Source of the DNA: a bacterium
GTDB lineage: Bacteria; Bacillota; Clostridia; Lachnospirales; Lachnospiraceae
Reading direction: 5' to 3'
DNA: 64,000 nucleotides
Assembly (NCBI GenBank): GCA_030535455.1
Contig: JAUNJY010000002.1
Coordinates: forward strand, 124,001 to 188,000
Positions 34,758 to 54,877 of the stretch are shown piece by piece (position 1 is the first letter of the stretch; every line of letters begins with the position of its first letter). Below the pieces are notes generated by a model. It searched no databases and had not been told where the DNA came from. It worked only from the letters and a program-made list of their open reading frames with translations. The position numbers and the translations under genes are program-made.

Positions 34758-35000
34758 AAAAAAAGTGGCAACGTGGAAATTCGTTTTTCCACGCACTAAA
34801 AACTAGTGCATGGGACGAATGTTTCCGCGTTGCCACCCAAATTGTCTGCTAAAAGCAAACCTCTTTAAAAGTACGTTAAAGGGTACTAACCTTCTGATTT
34901 ATCACCAGCAGCTAAAAAAGTGGAACGATTTTAATAAGTACCGATTTACACCAACCATCGGCTCTCTGAGACTCTTTCAAATCATAGCTTTTCTCATTGC
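34758..35000 (-). promoter_or_regulatory. T-box leader controlling serS
   Basis: On the minus strand the antiterminator box GGGTGGCAACGCGG lies at 34838-34825. A long terminator follows in which GTGGCAACGCGGAAA pairs with TTTCCACGTTGCCAC, ending in seven T (34764-34758). Upstream is a stem I region with AGAGAGCCGATGGTTGGTG. A UCC serine codon at 34924-34922 is the best specifier candidate; an AGC slightly downstream is a second possibility. Uncharged tRNA-Ser would stabilise the antiterminator. Confidence 0.92.
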
Positions 35001-35027
35001 TTATTTCTCATATTTACATTTTCACTC

Positions 35028-50286: not shown

Positions 50287-50380
50287 TCTAATTTCCCTAC
50301 ACTTTCTCCATTTTTATTTATTGATTATACCACACCATGCTCCTTTTATCCCAATCACCACATATTTTCCTATTTATAAA

Positions 50381-50683
50381 CAAAGTGTATGTTCCACACA
50401 CTTTCAGACTGTGATAAATGAAATCTTGCATTCACTCCAGCGCACTGCTTAGAGGAAAGTTTGAAAACCATAGGTTTTCATTGGAATCGATATCCGGAAA
50501 CCGCGCTTTTCGGATATCGGATTAGTGCGAATAGGTCCTGTTTTAGAAGGACTTGCACGAGTGAGCACTAATCATTTCCCTCGGCACTGGATGAAATCCT
50601 GATTTCATCCAAAGCTTGTCGACTTTGTCGACAAGCTGAAAGTGAGTGCGCATCCTACGCCCTGTCTTCTAAGGGCGTTTTTT
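50381..50683 (+). ncRNA. Candidate large structured RNA with its own terminator
   Basis: A gene-free region with nested pairings: CACTTTCAG (50399-50407) with CTGAAAGTG (50636-50644), or alternatively GCATTCACT (50428-50436) with AGTGAGTGC (50641-50649). Further in, GAGGAAA (50452) pairs with TTTCCCTC (50575), GATTAGTGC (50520) with GCACTAATC (50565), and AGGTCCT with AGGACTT inside it. Closed hairpins are CGATATCCG/CGGATATCG, GGATGAAATC/GATTTCATCC and AGCTTGTCGAC/GTCGACAAGCT. It ends in a strong terminator (ACGCCCT/AGGGCGT plus six T, 50657-50683), which sets the strand. I cannot assign it to a known class, and no clear promoter is visible. Confidence 0.6.
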
Positions 50684-50694
50684 GAATTAAGGGG

Positions 50695-50800
50695 TGGCTG
50701 CTCAAAGAGCAAACTCCCCTTAATTCAAAAAAGGTGTTCCCTAACAATCTTATTGTTATAGGAACACCTTTTATTATATTCATGGCAGGCTAGTTAGCCA
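50695..50800. repeat. Probable decayed copy D of the palindromic element
   Basis: GTGGCT (50695) and AGCCAC (ending 50800) form inverted ends around GGTGTTCCCTAACAATCTTA, which resembles the core CCTAACAATnCTAA of copies A-C. The left part also pairs as GAATTAAGGGG/CCCCTTAATTC (50684-50726). The identity is weaker than for the other three copies. Confidence 0.45.
50733..50768 (-). terminator. Terminator of the AGCS symporter gene
   Basis: GGTGTTCC/GGAACACC with an inner TAACAAT/ATTGTTA stem. On the minus strand six T follow (50732 downwards), and on the plus strand TTTT follows, so it may work both ways. Confidence 0.85.
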
Positions 50801-50812
50801 CTCTAAATCCTC

Positions 50813-52204
50813 TTACCAGCATTCTGCATTGTCAATGCCAATATTAGCTGCTTTAAATATAGGATCCTTGCCTTCTTTTTTCTGTTTCTTATAATCATCT
50901 AATGCCTTCACAGCAATTGGATATAATAAGAGAATTGCAATGATATTCACGATTGCCATAAAGCCCATTAATACATCTGCTAAGTTCCATACCGTATCAA
51001 AGTTTGCAATAGAACCTAATACGATTGCACCTAGACAGAATAATCTAAACACAAGTAATACTACTTTATTGTCTTTGATAAATCTTAAATTGGACTCTGC
51101 ATAGCAGTAGTTACCAACCATGGAACTAAATGCAAAGAAGATAATGGAAACGATGATGAAATGAATACCAATTTCGCCAACTTGGGATTTTACCGCTTGT
51201 TGAACTAAAGGAATTCCCTTTTCTCCATTTCCTACCCCATATACTAAGATCATCATTGCTGTTGTCGTACAGATAACCAATGTATCAATATATACAGAGA
51301 TCATTTGAACAAGACCTTGTTTTACCGGATGGCTAACATCTGCTGTAGCTGCCGCATTTGGAGCAGACCCCATACCTGCTTCATTACTGAATAAGCCTCG
51401 TTTGATACCATACATAACACAGGATCCCATAAAACCACCGGAAATAGCTTTGATATCAAATGCTTGTTTAAATACTTCTGAAAAAATAGCTGGAAGCGCT
51501 GTAATATTTGTTAGTGTAATAAATAAACCAAGGCAGATATATAAAATCGCCATGATTGGTACTATTACAGATGTAATGATACCGATTCGGTGTACACCAC
51601 CAAAAATCGTATAAGCCGTAGCAATCATTAAGATAAATCCAATTACCAGGCCAAGAATTTTCTTAGCTTCTGCTCCAGATACATAATACTCTACTGCTGA
51701 ACTTACGTTATATGCCTGAAGAGCATTAAATCCAAATGCAAAACAAAGAATAAGTAAGATGGCAAAAATAATGCCTAACCAACGTTTTCCTAATGCTTTT
51801 TGAATATAGTAAGCAGGACCCCCACGAAATGCTTTTCCGTCCTTTTCTTTATAAATCTGTGCCAATGTACTTTCTACAAATGCAGAAGCACTACCGATAA
51901 CCCCAAGAAGCCACATCCAAAAGATTGCACCCGGTCCGCCTGAAGCCAATGCTGATGCAACACCTGCGATATTACCAGTTCCTACTCTTGATGCAGTCGA
52001 TATCATTAATGCTTGAAAGGAAGATACCCCTTTCTCGTTTGATTTCTTTTCTGTCAGTGTGCGAAATGCCTCCGGAATCATTGTTATTTGCACAAATTTT
52101 GTCTTGATCGTAAAATAAATTCCCGCAAGAACAAGCAAGGCAATTAAAATATATCCATAGAGGAAGTCATTTGCGTTGTTAAGTAATTCGTTAATAAATG
52201 TCAT
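50813..52204 (-). CDS. Sodium:alanine/glycine symporter (AGCS family)
   Basis: 463 residues from the ATG at 52204, preceded by AGGAGGAG; a longer reading to 52234 has no such site. Some ten to eleven membrane helices carry the family's signatures STASRVGTGNIAGVASA, GGPGAIFWMW, RGLFSNEAGMGSAPNAAATA and VGNYCYAESN. It imports alanine or glycine with sodium. The gene is monocistronic with a strong terminator. I see no glycine riboswitch in the 52205-52463 gap. Confidence 0.95.
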   Translation of the reverse strand: MTFINELLNNANDFLYGYILIALLVLAGIYFTIKTKFVQITMIPEAFRTLTEKKSNEKGVSSFQALMISTASRVGTGNIAGVASALASGGPGAIFWMWLLGVIGSASAFVESTLAQIYKEKDGKAFRGGPAYYIQKALGKRWLGIIFAILLILCFAFGFNALQAYNVSSAVEYYVSGAEAKKILGLVIGFILMIATAYTIFGGVHRIGIITSVIVPIMAILYICLGLFITLTNITALPAIFSEVFKQAFDIKAISGGFMGSCVMYGIKRGLFSNEAGMGSAPNAAATADVSHPVKQGLVQMISVYIDTLVICTTTAMMILVYGVGNGEKGIPLVQQAVKSQVGEIGIHFIIVSIIFFAFSSMVGNYCYAESNLRFIKDNKVVLLVFRLFCLGAIVLGSIANFDTVWNLADVLMGFMAIVNIIAILLLYPIAVKALDDYKKQKKEGKDPIFKAANIGIDNAECW

Positions 52205-52388
52205 CCTTTGAACTCCTCCTGTTTTTAGTATCAATAGATTACTATATTATTTCACACAATTCAAGTTAATGTAGGCCTTACCGTATATAATTAAGGAGAT
52301 TTAACAAATCACTTAATTTTATTAGGAATTTTCCTGGTATTTTGTGGTTTATTAGTAAATTATTGTATTTCTTCTACATTTTAAACAA

Positions 52389-52463: not shown

Positions 52464-52811
52464 ATGGATACTATATTAGATATGGATGTACTTCAGTTAA
52501 AACTTGAAGTGTCACGTAATAACTTCAAAAAATTGGTTCAAAAGATTTATGACAAGGAAATGCAAGAGGAATCGAAAGAAGCAGTCCTTTCCCTTCTTCT
52601 AAATGGAAAAGAAGAATTCACTTCCCTTATGGAGGAAGCGCATTCCTTTCCAACTGTTACGGATGAATTAAAAGATGTGCAGTTTGCTATCTTTGATCAT
52701 CTTTTACTTGCTAACGATCTGTATACCTTCTATAAAGAAGATTTATTTGACCGTTTCCGATTACGTTTCGAAAACTATAATCAGCGTCAGCGTGTAAACA
52801 GCCTTTTGTAG
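52464..52811 (+). CDS. Small helical hypothetical protein
   Basis: A 115-residue soluble protein that I do not recognise. It is acidic and almost entirely helical (LKLEVSRNNFKKLVQKIYDK and similar), without membrane segments, Cys pairs or a signal peptide. It is a real gene by its GAGGA site 9 nt before the ATG, its own promoter and codon use like the neighbours. The stop codon is 1 bp from the left end of the palindromic element at 52813-53101, so that element may serve as its 3' end. Confidence 0.7.
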   Translation: MDTILDMDVLQLKLEVSRNNFKKLVQKIYDKEMQEESKEAVLSLLLNGKEEFTSLMEEAHSFPTVTDELKDVQFAIFDHLLLANDLYTFYKEDLFDRFRLRFENYNQRQRVNSLL

Positions 52812-52812
52812 G

Positions 52813-53101
52813 GGCTGGCGCTCGATATCCTTACTAAAAGATTTTTCATTAAAATATCGAAGTTTTACGAAAAAGAGATAGGCGTTACAGTAACAGTGCT
52901 ATTGTCTTTCCGCTGCCTCTACAGTAATCTCCAAATATCCACTGCTGTCAGACACCTTTGGTGTTTGCCCTCAGTGGATATTTTGTCATTACTGTAACGG
53001 TAGAGGAAAGACAATTTAGCATTGTTAGGAACGCATATCTCTTTGTTGTAGGTTGAGATATTTTAATGAAAAATCTTACTTCAGTCTATGGTGCGCCAGC
53101 C
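52813..53101. repeat. Palindromic dispersed element, copy B (longest)
   Basis: Ends GGCTGGCGC (52813-52821) and GCGCCAGCC (53093-53101) are exact inverted repeats. Next come AAGATTTTTCATTAAAATAT and its mirror ATATTTTAATGAAAAATCTT (52838-53077). The interior contains GTAGAGGAAAGACAATTTAG, CATTGTTAGGAACG and, in the middle, an extra hairpin (ATATCCACTG/CAGTGGATAT, about 52936-52983). Its core runs in the opposite direction to copy A. A GTCAGGTA/TACCTGAC hairpin followed by AAAAA abuts it at 53107-53134, as in copy C. Confidence 0.85.
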
Positions 53102-53152
53102 ACTAGGTCAGGTATGAGAAACTACCTGACAAAAAGATGAGTTTCATAAAAG

Positions 53153-53240: not shown

Positions 53241-54542
53241 TTAGATGACAAAATAGAGAAGGAAGAGGGCTCCTAGGCCGTAGATTACGGGATGGAGGTC
53301 TTTTACTCTGCCTTTGGCGATCATTAGGATGATGTAGATTAGGAAACCGCCTGCAATTCCTTCTCCAATGCTGTATGTCAGTGGCATTAAGATAATTGTT
53401 AAGAAGGCAGAAATCGCGATTACAGGATCATCCCAATCGATTTCACGTAAGGATACGCATAATAAGGATCCTACGATAATTAATGCTGGTGCAGAGATGC
53501 TGCTTGTTACTACAGTTAATAATGGTGAGAAGAATAAACTTACAAGGAACATACCGCTTACTACTACACTTGAGAAACCTGTTCTTGCGCCACTGGCAAT
53601 ACCAGATAAGGATTCCATGCAGCTTGTTGTATTTGTAGTACCACATACAGCACCTACGCAAGTTGCTACAGAGTCTGCTAGTAATGCTTTCGAACCATTA
53701 GTTACACTTCCATCTTCTTTGATTAAGCCAACTTTAGAGCCGATTGCCACTAGTGTTCCTGCTGTATCAAAGAAATCCATAAACAATAACGTGAAGACAA
53801 CAAGTAACATGTCTACATTAAATACATCTTTTAAGTGAGTGATTGCTGCACCAAATGTTGGAGCCATGCTTGGTGGCATGCTTACTATTGCAGTTGGTAA
53901 TGGAACTACGTTTGTTGCCATACCTGCAATTACAGTAACAACTAAGCCAATAAAGATGGCAGATGTTACGCCACGAACCATTAAGATGGCCATTACAAGA
54001 AGGCCGAAAATTGTTACAAGGACAGGTAGTGATTTTACATCGCCAAGCGCTACATAAGTAGAAGCACTTCCTACAATGATACCTGCATTTTTTAATCCGA
54101 TAAATGCAATAAATAAACCGATGCCGGCACTTACTGCAAATTTAATGTCATTTGGAATTACTTTAATGATCAATTCACGAAGACCTGTTGCTGAAATTAC
54201 AACAAAAATCGCACCTGATACAAATACGCCTGCAAATGCTGTCTGCCATGGAATTCCCATCCCATCTACAACACTGTATGCAAAAAATGCGTTAAGCCCC
54301 ATGCCTGGTGCCAATGCCATTGGGAATTTTGCGAATGCACCCATAATAAAGGTTCCGATTGCTGCTGAAATTGCAGTTGCAACAAATACGCTTTCTTTTG
54401 GCACTCCTACGGATCCTAAGATATCTGGAATGACAAATAATAAATATGCAATTGTTAAAAATGTGGTCAATCCCCCGAGGATTTCTTTTTTGAATGTGGT
54501 ATTATTTTTTTCGAATTCAAAATAATTAGAAATAAATTTCAT
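53241..54542 (-). CDS. Guanine/hypoxanthine permease (AzgA/PbuG family)
   Basis: A 433-residue permease with 12-14 membrane segments. It has FEFEKNNTTFKKEILGGLTT at the start, MALAPGMGLNAFFAYSV, LLFMDFFDTAGTLVAIGSKV and CVGAVCGTTNTTSCMESLSG, all diagnostic of AzgA-type purine:proton symporters. The riboswitch at 54671-54734 in its leader has the C that reads guanine or hypoxanthine, in agreement with such a substrate. It is monocistronic. Confidence 0.95.
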   Translation of the reverse strand: MKFISNYFEFEKNNTTFKKEILGGLTTFLTIAYLLFVIPDILGSVGVPKESVFVATAISAAIGTFIMGAFAKFPMALAPGMGLNAFFAYSVVDGMGIPWQTAFAGVFVSGAIFVVISATGLRELIIKVIPNDIKFAVSAGIGLFIAFIGLKNAGIIVGSASTYVALGDVKSLPVLVTIFGLLVMAILMVRGVTSAIFIGLVVTVIAGMATNVVPLPTAIVSMPPSMAPTFGAAITHLKDVFNVDMLLVVFTLLFMDFFDTAGTLVAIGSKVGLIKEDGSVTNGSKALLADSVATCVGAVCGTTNTTSCMESLSGIASGARTGFSSVVVSGMFLVSLFFSPLLTVVTSSISAPALIIVGSLLCVSLREIDWDDPVIAISAFLTIILMPLTYSIGEGIAGGFLIYIILMIAKGRVKDLHPVIYGLGALFLLYFVI

Positions 54543-54670
54543 GACTTTCTCCCTTTAGTTCTTCACTATCATAAAGGTGGAATCAGAAATGTTTTGACTG
54601 CGCAAAAACGCTACATAGATATGGCAAAGCAAATTAGAAAAATTACTTTACTAACATATTAGCACTGCAC

Positions 54671-54734
54671 ATCGTAGTCAAATCATAGGTGATTTGGTAG
54701 AAACTATTGATCCATTATATCAACTTTATACGAT
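54671..54734 (-). promoter_or_regulatory. Purine (guanine-type) riboswitch aptamer
   Basis: On the minus strand P1 is ATCGTA/TACGAT, P2 TTGAT/ATCAA with loop ATAATGG, P3 CAAATC/GATTTG with loop ACCTAT, and the joining segment TAGTTTCTACC. The 3' joining strand reads GACTACG; the C before TA is the base that selects guanine over adenine. L3 is 6 nt rather than the common 7. It lies 129 nt before the permease ATG. I see a weak hairpin (GTAAAG/CTTTGC) in between but no clear terminator with a T-run. Confidence 0.85.
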
Positions 54735-54877
54735 AGCTTTGTTTGGTTATTTATATTAGGTCATATGGTATCACAGCTATATTTCACATTTCTACATGTA
54801 AATTATGGATATGAGTATTTCCGACTAATTTAACCATACTAAGCATTGTATATTATTGATAAAGGAGTCTGAATATT

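Follow-up and report, generated by a model that had tools for sequence, protein, structure and literature searches.

IS1272, a staphylococcal element of the IS1182 family, is described in PMC5678879 as targeting stem-loops and replacing them without duplication. The same paper sets out an alternative route, pathway (b), in which joining occurs at the 5′ feet and the whole stem-loop would be duplicated. According to PMC4923244, TnSha1 and IS1272 insert in hairpins, several of which are terminators confirmed by RNA-seq, and the target is partly deleted. For the targeting of palindromes by some IS1182 members, both refer to a review by Siguier and colleagues. The locus analysed here carries a copy of a short, gene-less element with IS1182-type ends, most copies of which are flanked by two complete copies of a hairpin.

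The window, a 64,000 nt stretch of contig JAUNJY010000002.1 (positions 124,001 to 188,000, forward strand), belongs to a Lachnospiraceae genome (GCA_030535455.1, hereafter G000; 4.35 Mb in 126 contigs, completeness 93.56, contamination 7.74). Positions 50381–50683 of the window were originally predicted to encode one large structured RNA of about 300 nt, gene-free and ending in a plus-strand terminator, with mutually exclusive outer stems. Gene-free and densely paired this region proved to be: no ORF of at least 50 aa is listed in 50380–50812, and the plus strand folds at −116.9 kcal/mol (z −7.76), a value equalled by none of 100 shuffles. Because the minus strand is nearly equal in stability (−112.6, z −7.62), the strand is not chosen by the fold alone. 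Sequence comparison gave high confidence that two repeats are combined in the 303 nt, an element named M here having landed in a copy of a second repeat, S. The features are as follows.

50379..50403, plus strand: first hairpin of S, the AAAGTGT/ACACTTT hairpin of the original prediction; M is inserted beside it, and 20–23 of its 25 bases match in six of nine tested S loci.
50404..50639, plus strand: M, a MITE with IS1182-type ends; at least 40 genome copies, defined from the ends and flanks of 70 copies.
50404..50418, plus strand: left terminal inverted repeat of M, here the degenerate TCAGACTGTGATAAA; usual form TCAGACTGTAGACAA.
50462..50480, plus strand: hairpin A of M; 3 of 8 pairs changed on both sides between copies.
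50488..50519, plus strand: hairpin B of M, loop ACCGCGC; 4 of 12 pairs changed on both sides.
50520..50573, plus strand: hairpin C of M, a two-part stem with a 3′ internal loop; 9 of 17 pairs in two helices changed on both sides.
50589..50610, plus strand: hairpin D of M; 8 of 9 pairs never vary and one changed on both sides.
50613..50637, plus strand: hairpin E of M, which holds the right terminal inverted repeat; placed by copy alignment, end pattern and consensus fold.
50640..50683, plus strand: 3′ part of S with the terminator stem-loop 50657–50678; matches elsewhere in the genome.
50678..50732, no strand assigned: last hairpin of S, with a T-run/A-run stem; the A-run lies against the convergent gene's terminator.
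50731..50773, minus strand: hairpin resembling the terminator of the convergent gene 50813–52234, placed by sequence and ORF.

A DNA search of G000 with M gave 46 matches, 40 of them long, and hence at least 40 copies; this is a lower bound, with 40 of 148 candidates scored. Alignment of 41 copies with their flanks placed the ends of M at 50404 and 50639, where TCAGACTGTAGACAA... and ...TTTGTCGACAAGCTGA form an imperfect inverted repeat. Allowing one mismatch, the end pattern occurs 119 times in G000 and the reversed pattern 11 times. The element is 236 bp long and contains no ORF of at least 50 aa. It was also found in two further genomes of the genus, at about 86–92% identity in G001 and, over part of its length, at about 70–74% in G003. 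Internally shortened copies of 20–189 bp are many; among relatives of this kind measuring 20–147 bp (L080, L082, L085, L055, L062, L067 and L084), some retain a duplicated hairpin.

The flanks of 70 copies (41 from G000, 10 from G001 and 19 from G003) were compared, both flanks reaching at least 40 nt in 68 of them. A duplication was called when an ungapped direct repeat scored 12 or more, and 200 reshuffled pairings of left and right flanks served as control. A whole hairpin was found directly duplicated at both ends of M in 50 of the 68 copies, against a control mean of 0.69 and maximum of 4; by genome the counts were 28/41, 6/10 and 16/19 for G000, G001 and G003. The duplicated sequence differs from locus to locus but is a hairpin, 15–36 bp long (median 26), and the duplication has exactly the length of the hairpin in 39 of the 50 copies and is within 2 of it in 49. 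An A-rich stretch precedes the left hairpin copy in all 50 and a T-rich one follows the right copy in 43; as intrinsic terminators are A-rich on the 5′ side and T-rich on the 3′ side, the duplicated hairpins are read as intrinsic terminators. No duplication was called in the other 18 copies, and the ungapped test misses duplications that bear indels, e.g. at L011, L025 and L044. We hold the pattern, insertion with duplication of a hairpin, with high confidence.

At two loci (L018 and L026) the right hairpin copy is immediately followed by another M-type end, which suggests tandem or repeated insertion. At five others (L048, L049, L052, L054 and L057) a lone M-type end adjoins a terminator hairpin, with no second end nearby by the pattern used; such ends are either remnants or a motif reused by terminators. 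The solo ends at L048, L049 and L052 were considered as autonomous elements and rejected. The neighbouring ORFs, which we take to be a subtilisin-like protease, a formate-tetrahydrofolate ligase and a protein to which we could put no name, read as host genes, and the ends are therefore lone ends.

The ends of M match those of autonomous IS1182-family elements within the same order. The end motif was found by pattern scan in 185 of 392 genomes of the order. At locus L119 (genome G119), the sequence between inward-facing ends 1.6 kb apart encodes a transposase of the IS1182 family (NF033551 at 470 bits, E 7.8e-141, cut-off 270; DDE_Tnp_1_6 and DUF772 in Pfam). Ends of the form TCAG..TGT.GACAA are common to M and the IS1182 elements L119, L140, L141, L142 and L144. 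Searching for the family itself gave matches in 182 of the 392 genomes, 52 of them over the cut-off. Six of 30 fetched IS1182 loci (L140, L141, L142, L144, L150 and L156) have a perfectly duplicated flanking hairpin of 20–33 bp; others have matching ends, but with differing hairpins on the two sides (L146 and L148, for instance) or a contig end. In four autonomous elements (L141, L142, L144 and L148) a hairpin followed by a T-run lies just inside the terminal repeat at each end, and these hairpins could stop transcription entering the element. Thirty of the 392 genomes, read by hand, have five or more end motifs; 17 of them have any IS1182 match, 9 are over the cut-off and 13 have none, while the other 362 include 165 with any match and 43 over the cut-off. 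With 9/30 against 43/362 over the cut-off (p 0.01), the link between end motif and IS1182 across genomes is modest. We have high confidence that M is an IS1182-type mobile element.

No IS1182 transposase was found in the G000 assembly with either Pfam PF13751 or NF033551, nor was one found in G001. Several G000 contigs stop about 50 bp inside one of two further related end types, each of which has a subterminal hairpin like those in autonomous elements. Two pairs of G000 contig ends (C71/C34 and C57/C20) carry the same target hairpin. As this is what an unassembled autonomous copy would be expected to leave, the contig ends suggest that G000 has one. In G002, a sister genome, an IS1182 fragment (E 2.3e-50) adjoins the second end type.

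On these data, an IS1182-family transposase would mobilise the non-autonomous M in trans, recognising the TCAG..TGT.GACAA ends and taking as its target a DNA hairpin, usually an intrinsic terminator. Joining of the element would take place at each foot of the stem-loop, the two joints lying on opposite strands; repair would then leave a full hairpin on each side, and the terminator would survive. The M copies fit pathway (b) of PMC5678879, and our confidence in this strand-transfer geometry is moderate. The copy in the window has a degenerate left end and no detectable duplication. Here M landed beside the first hairpin of S, and the right hairpin copy, together with the S core, would later have been lost, probably by deletion at a shared AGTG; the observed junction reads AAGTG/AGTGCGC. 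No empty or intact allele was found.

Repeat S is represented in the window by 50379–50403 and 50640–50732, with its core missing and M in its place, and the core model found no intact S in the window. Searching with 50640–50735 gave at least 28 matches in G000, where the query itself counts and 40 of 52 candidates were scored; G001 had 14, G002 seven and G003 none. An intact S consists, in order, of a first hairpin, the core, a terminator and a long hairpin with a paired T-run and A-run. The core, of the form CGCGCCGAAC...TTCCTTTC..GTGAGTGCGCATC, is preceded in several copies by the first hairpin, which often reads ACAAAGTGTGTG...CACACTTTG. In the six of nine tested loci that passed the matching cut, the gap between the two S halves is 44–46 nt in four and 79 and 87 nt in two; the four loci with a gap of about 44 nt have a short first hairpin. 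At least 11 pairs form in the hairpin below the core at 65 of 73 loci (20 of 72 control stretches), and at least 9 pairs in the first hairpin at 54 of 73 (27 of 73 controls).

At E ≤0.001 the core model gave at least 147 matches in G000 (150 of 960 candidates scored), 68 in G001, 47 in G003 and one in G002, whose genome is incomplete. S occurs in 36 of the 392 genomes of the order, many with several copies and some with at least 14. S-like sequence was also found in database records including Lachnoclostridium sp. UBA7482, an uncultured Lachnospiraceae bacterium and an uncultured Roseburia; of 19 stretches matched, 9 were taken as S-like and the other 10 looked like chance. Tandem arrays of two to three S units about 100–190 bp apart were seen in G000 (L197, L199, L200 and L207; contigs C47, C49 and C97). 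Among 58 loci examined, the next ORF 3′ of S runs in the opposite direction in 49 of 56, so that the end of S faces the terminator of a convergent gene. With a simple ORF caller, 18 of the 58 cores overlap an ORF of at least 80 codons.

Two alignments were used for the S core. The first, A1, has 26 rows, made up of 20 of 26 extracted cores (L037, L188, L193, the second L197 copy, L206 and L207 were left out) and six of the nine S-like matches from named records; its covariation score is 0.375, with slid partners at 0.089 or less. The second, A2, holds 75 matches, 55 of them distinct, that were aligned by the model and thus lean towards its structure; here covariation is 0.400 (slid at most 0.096), and 11 of 14 pairs in the three core helices changed on both sides. 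G-U cells exceed A-C cells by 37 to 12 in A2 (p 0.0005) and by 15 to 7 in A1. A terminator lies 3′ of the core in most S copies inspected. In the window the terminator-like site at 50657–50678 is the single one found in the scanned 1.4 kb, where 0.8 are expected by chance, so the count proves nothing alone; the site is supported because it recurs in other S copies. The plus-strand terminator of the original prediction is thus upheld, as a property of S and not of M.

The inner fold of M was analysed in two alignments, A3 and A4, of 34 and 25 copies chosen from the 70 and from further fetched loci. The end patterns miss two of the 12 loci taken from G001 (L172 and L178), and L172 is nonetheless part of A3. 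The consensus fold of the 34 copies (9 from G000, 9 from G001 and 16 from G003) has 57 pairs, of which 21 changed on both sides. For hairpins A–C in the 25 copies (37 pairs), 99.2% of cells are paired and 16 pairs changed on both sides; the covariation score is 0.387, against 0.071 or less for slid partners, and none of 500 shuffles scored as high. Further pair types in A–C do not exceed the shuffles (28 against 29.3; 487 of 500 shuffles equalled or exceeded the observed count), because the changes for the most part set just two lineages apart. Plus-strand cells hold 78 G-U and 3 A-C; four pairs have G-U in at least two rows and none has A-C in two. This excess points to an RNA of the plus strand. 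In hairpin C, CTTGCACGA covers the inner 3′ arm and the loop. The covariation check proposed with the original prediction thus gave compensatory changes in hairpins A–C across copies; the partner of the predicted outer stem is missing elsewhere.

A model of hairpins A–C run on 32 sources matched related cores in other families of the order, at L126 (E 1.9e-7), L092 (7e-7), L131 (7e-5), L125 (3e-4) and L123 (5e-4), and weakly L122 (0.053) and L143 (0.68). Among the same 32 sources, L124, L134, L138, L121 and L129 were unmatched despite having the ends, and folds of L121 and L129 lack the architecture by eye. In the 392 genomes, with stricter filters and at most nine places scored per genome, the model matched at least ten, including G000, the other nine being in one family; the loop region of hairpin B is kept in matches from other families. 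No IS1182-type end was found within 110–130 nt on each side of the core in G052, G286, G301 and G347, whose genome-wide counts of exact end motifs are 0, 0, 1 and 0. The core may therefore exist on its own, apart from the mobile element. In G301, G347 and G286, three genomes of one genus, M-like cores (L293, L301 and L295) lie at apparently the same locus; the other strand beside them is T-box-like, an assignment that we made by eye and take as presumptive.

Against Rfam (release 15), neither M nor S gave anything at gathering score, also when searched with loose E-values, and nothing at gathering score fell on 50381–50683, in line with the original prediction, which assigned the region to no known class. 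The sub-threshold matches on M and S were mostly to microRNA hairpin models. On S loci there were a sub-gathering T-box match as well as rRNA and tRNA matches, all in the flanks, and the nine M-core loci of other families had no match. Membership of M or S in a known Rfam class is accordingly rejected, as no gathering score was reached. Within the window, Rfam found at gathering score only a T-box leader (34808–35006, minus strand, 107.5 bits) and a purine riboswitch (54655–54753, minus strand, 64.1 bits, ahead of a 433-aa ORF at 53241–54542), both outside 50381–50683. A foldback of nested inverted repeats, about 300 bp long, lies at 52809–53105 (arms 52809–52827/53087–53105, 52838–52858/53057–53077, 52866–52886/53030–53050 and 52901–52956/52960–53015) and is possibly another small mobile element. 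A plasmid or phage origin of 50300–50700 was rejected on the outcome of blastn, which returned just two plasmid records with matches of 30–33 bp and no phage match.

That the region is one large trans-acting RNA with switching outer stems, ending at 50678, has next to no probability left. The strong fold and the terminator-like site speak for it, but the region joins two repeats: 50404–50639 is a dispersed mobile repeat, and 50379–50403 and 50640–50732 are the ends of another. The outer stem that uses the right flank has one arm within M (50439–50446) and its partner past 50639, and with one mismatch allowed this partner occurs in one of the 70 M copies, the window's own, and is missing from the other 69. 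Since the hairpin 50382–50403 and the terminator belong to S, the mutually exclusive stems are an accident of the locus, and the single switching RNA is rejected. The preference for a trans-acting RNA over a riboswitch falls for the 300 nt taken as one molecule. The next ORF past the region (50813–52234) is on the other strand, like 49 of 56 ORFs downstream of S, and a riboswitch is likewise rejected. A trans-acting role for M or S separately is possible. The sense of a large structured RNA outside the known classes was thus sound in part, and its boundaries and switch were not. It is also very improbable that M belongs to a hairpin-replacing, IS1272-like system and that the flanking hairpin copies arose otherwise. 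IS1272 is of the same family and replaces or deletes its target without duplication (PMC5678879 and PMC4923244), and 18 of the 68 M copies have no called duplication; some of these 18 are, however, the indel-bearing duplications mentioned above. In the 50 of 68 copies with a duplication the target hairpin is not lost and duplication length tracks hairpin length, which refutes such a system for most copies.

More weight, though clearly short of an even chance, goes to the explanation that the M hairpins matter as DNA only, as palindromes for transposition or leftovers of nested insertion, the RNA fold having no role. IS1182 relatives do target hairpins (PMC5678879 and PMC4923244), autonomous elements have hairpins just inside their ends, both strands of the region fold almost equally and many copies are internally shortened. 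Against this, compensatory changes maintain specific stems, the two-part hairpin C included, the 78 to 3 excess of G-U over A-C is unexpected for DNA palindromes, and the core is present in four genomes without ends close by. For S, a mobile DNA repeat with no RNA function is a comparably serious candidate that we still consider the weaker one: the number of core matches in one genome, the tandem copies and, in G377 and G200, the identity of cores from separate loci favour it, whereas the covariation of the three core helices, the G-U excess and the terminator after most inspected cores oppose it. Whether M and S act as RNA we judge, from sequence comparison, to be about evenly balanced. For the composite region as a whole we consider it very probable that an IS1182-mobilised M inserted beside the first hairpin of S, that a deletion followed and that the M fold was kept; hairpins A–E have been maintained by compensatory changes and would most likely act in a plus-strand RNA.

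A broader interpretation, which we put forward tentatively and rate a little below even, is that each of M and S is a family of structured RNA not described before. M would be an RNA gene riding in an IS1182-type element, selected for its fold and with a core that also occurs apart; S would be an RNA with a terminator at its end, occurring about 150 times in one genome and placed, throughout the order, beside the terminators of convergent genes; and insertion would follow the pathway that duplicates whole stem-loops, otherwise unseen in the open-access literature searched. That literature, which lacks most subscription journals, did not contain the combination described here. Should the M fold function as RNA, dozens of gene ends here would have received a structured RNA from a transposon, a matter of direct relevance to the origin of new small RNAs and 3′ ends. 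The duplicated terminator hairpins provide evidence, natural and open to counting, for a transposase guided by the shape of DNA and not by its sequence, and for an insertion route by which the terminator stays functional. S, which covaries strongly and has at least 147 core matches in a single genome, is a sizeable component of these genomes still in need of explanation.

In comparison with known systems, M and S resemble the large structured RNAs of Rfam, such as raiA and the riboswitch classes, in size and stem density. M is MITE-like in being short and gene-less, with terminal inverted repeats, a direct duplication of its target and a high copy number. Unlike gene-less mobile repeats of that kind, it has an internal fold kept by compensatory changes and an M-like core in other families, in four genomes with no ends seen nearby. 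With IS1272 and TnSha1 (PMC5678879 and PMC4923244) M shares the IS family and a stem-loop target chosen regardless of sequence and often a terminator; there, however, the hairpin is replaced or partly deleted, whereas M and its autonomous relatives here duplicate it. The IS1182-family insertion sequences of the same order have the same terminal repeats, insert like M at the foot of a terminator hairpin and in six of 30 loci duplicate the whole hairpin; M differs from them in being 236 bp long without an ORF of 50 aa or more, and in carrying a conserved multi-hairpin fold in place of the transposase gene.
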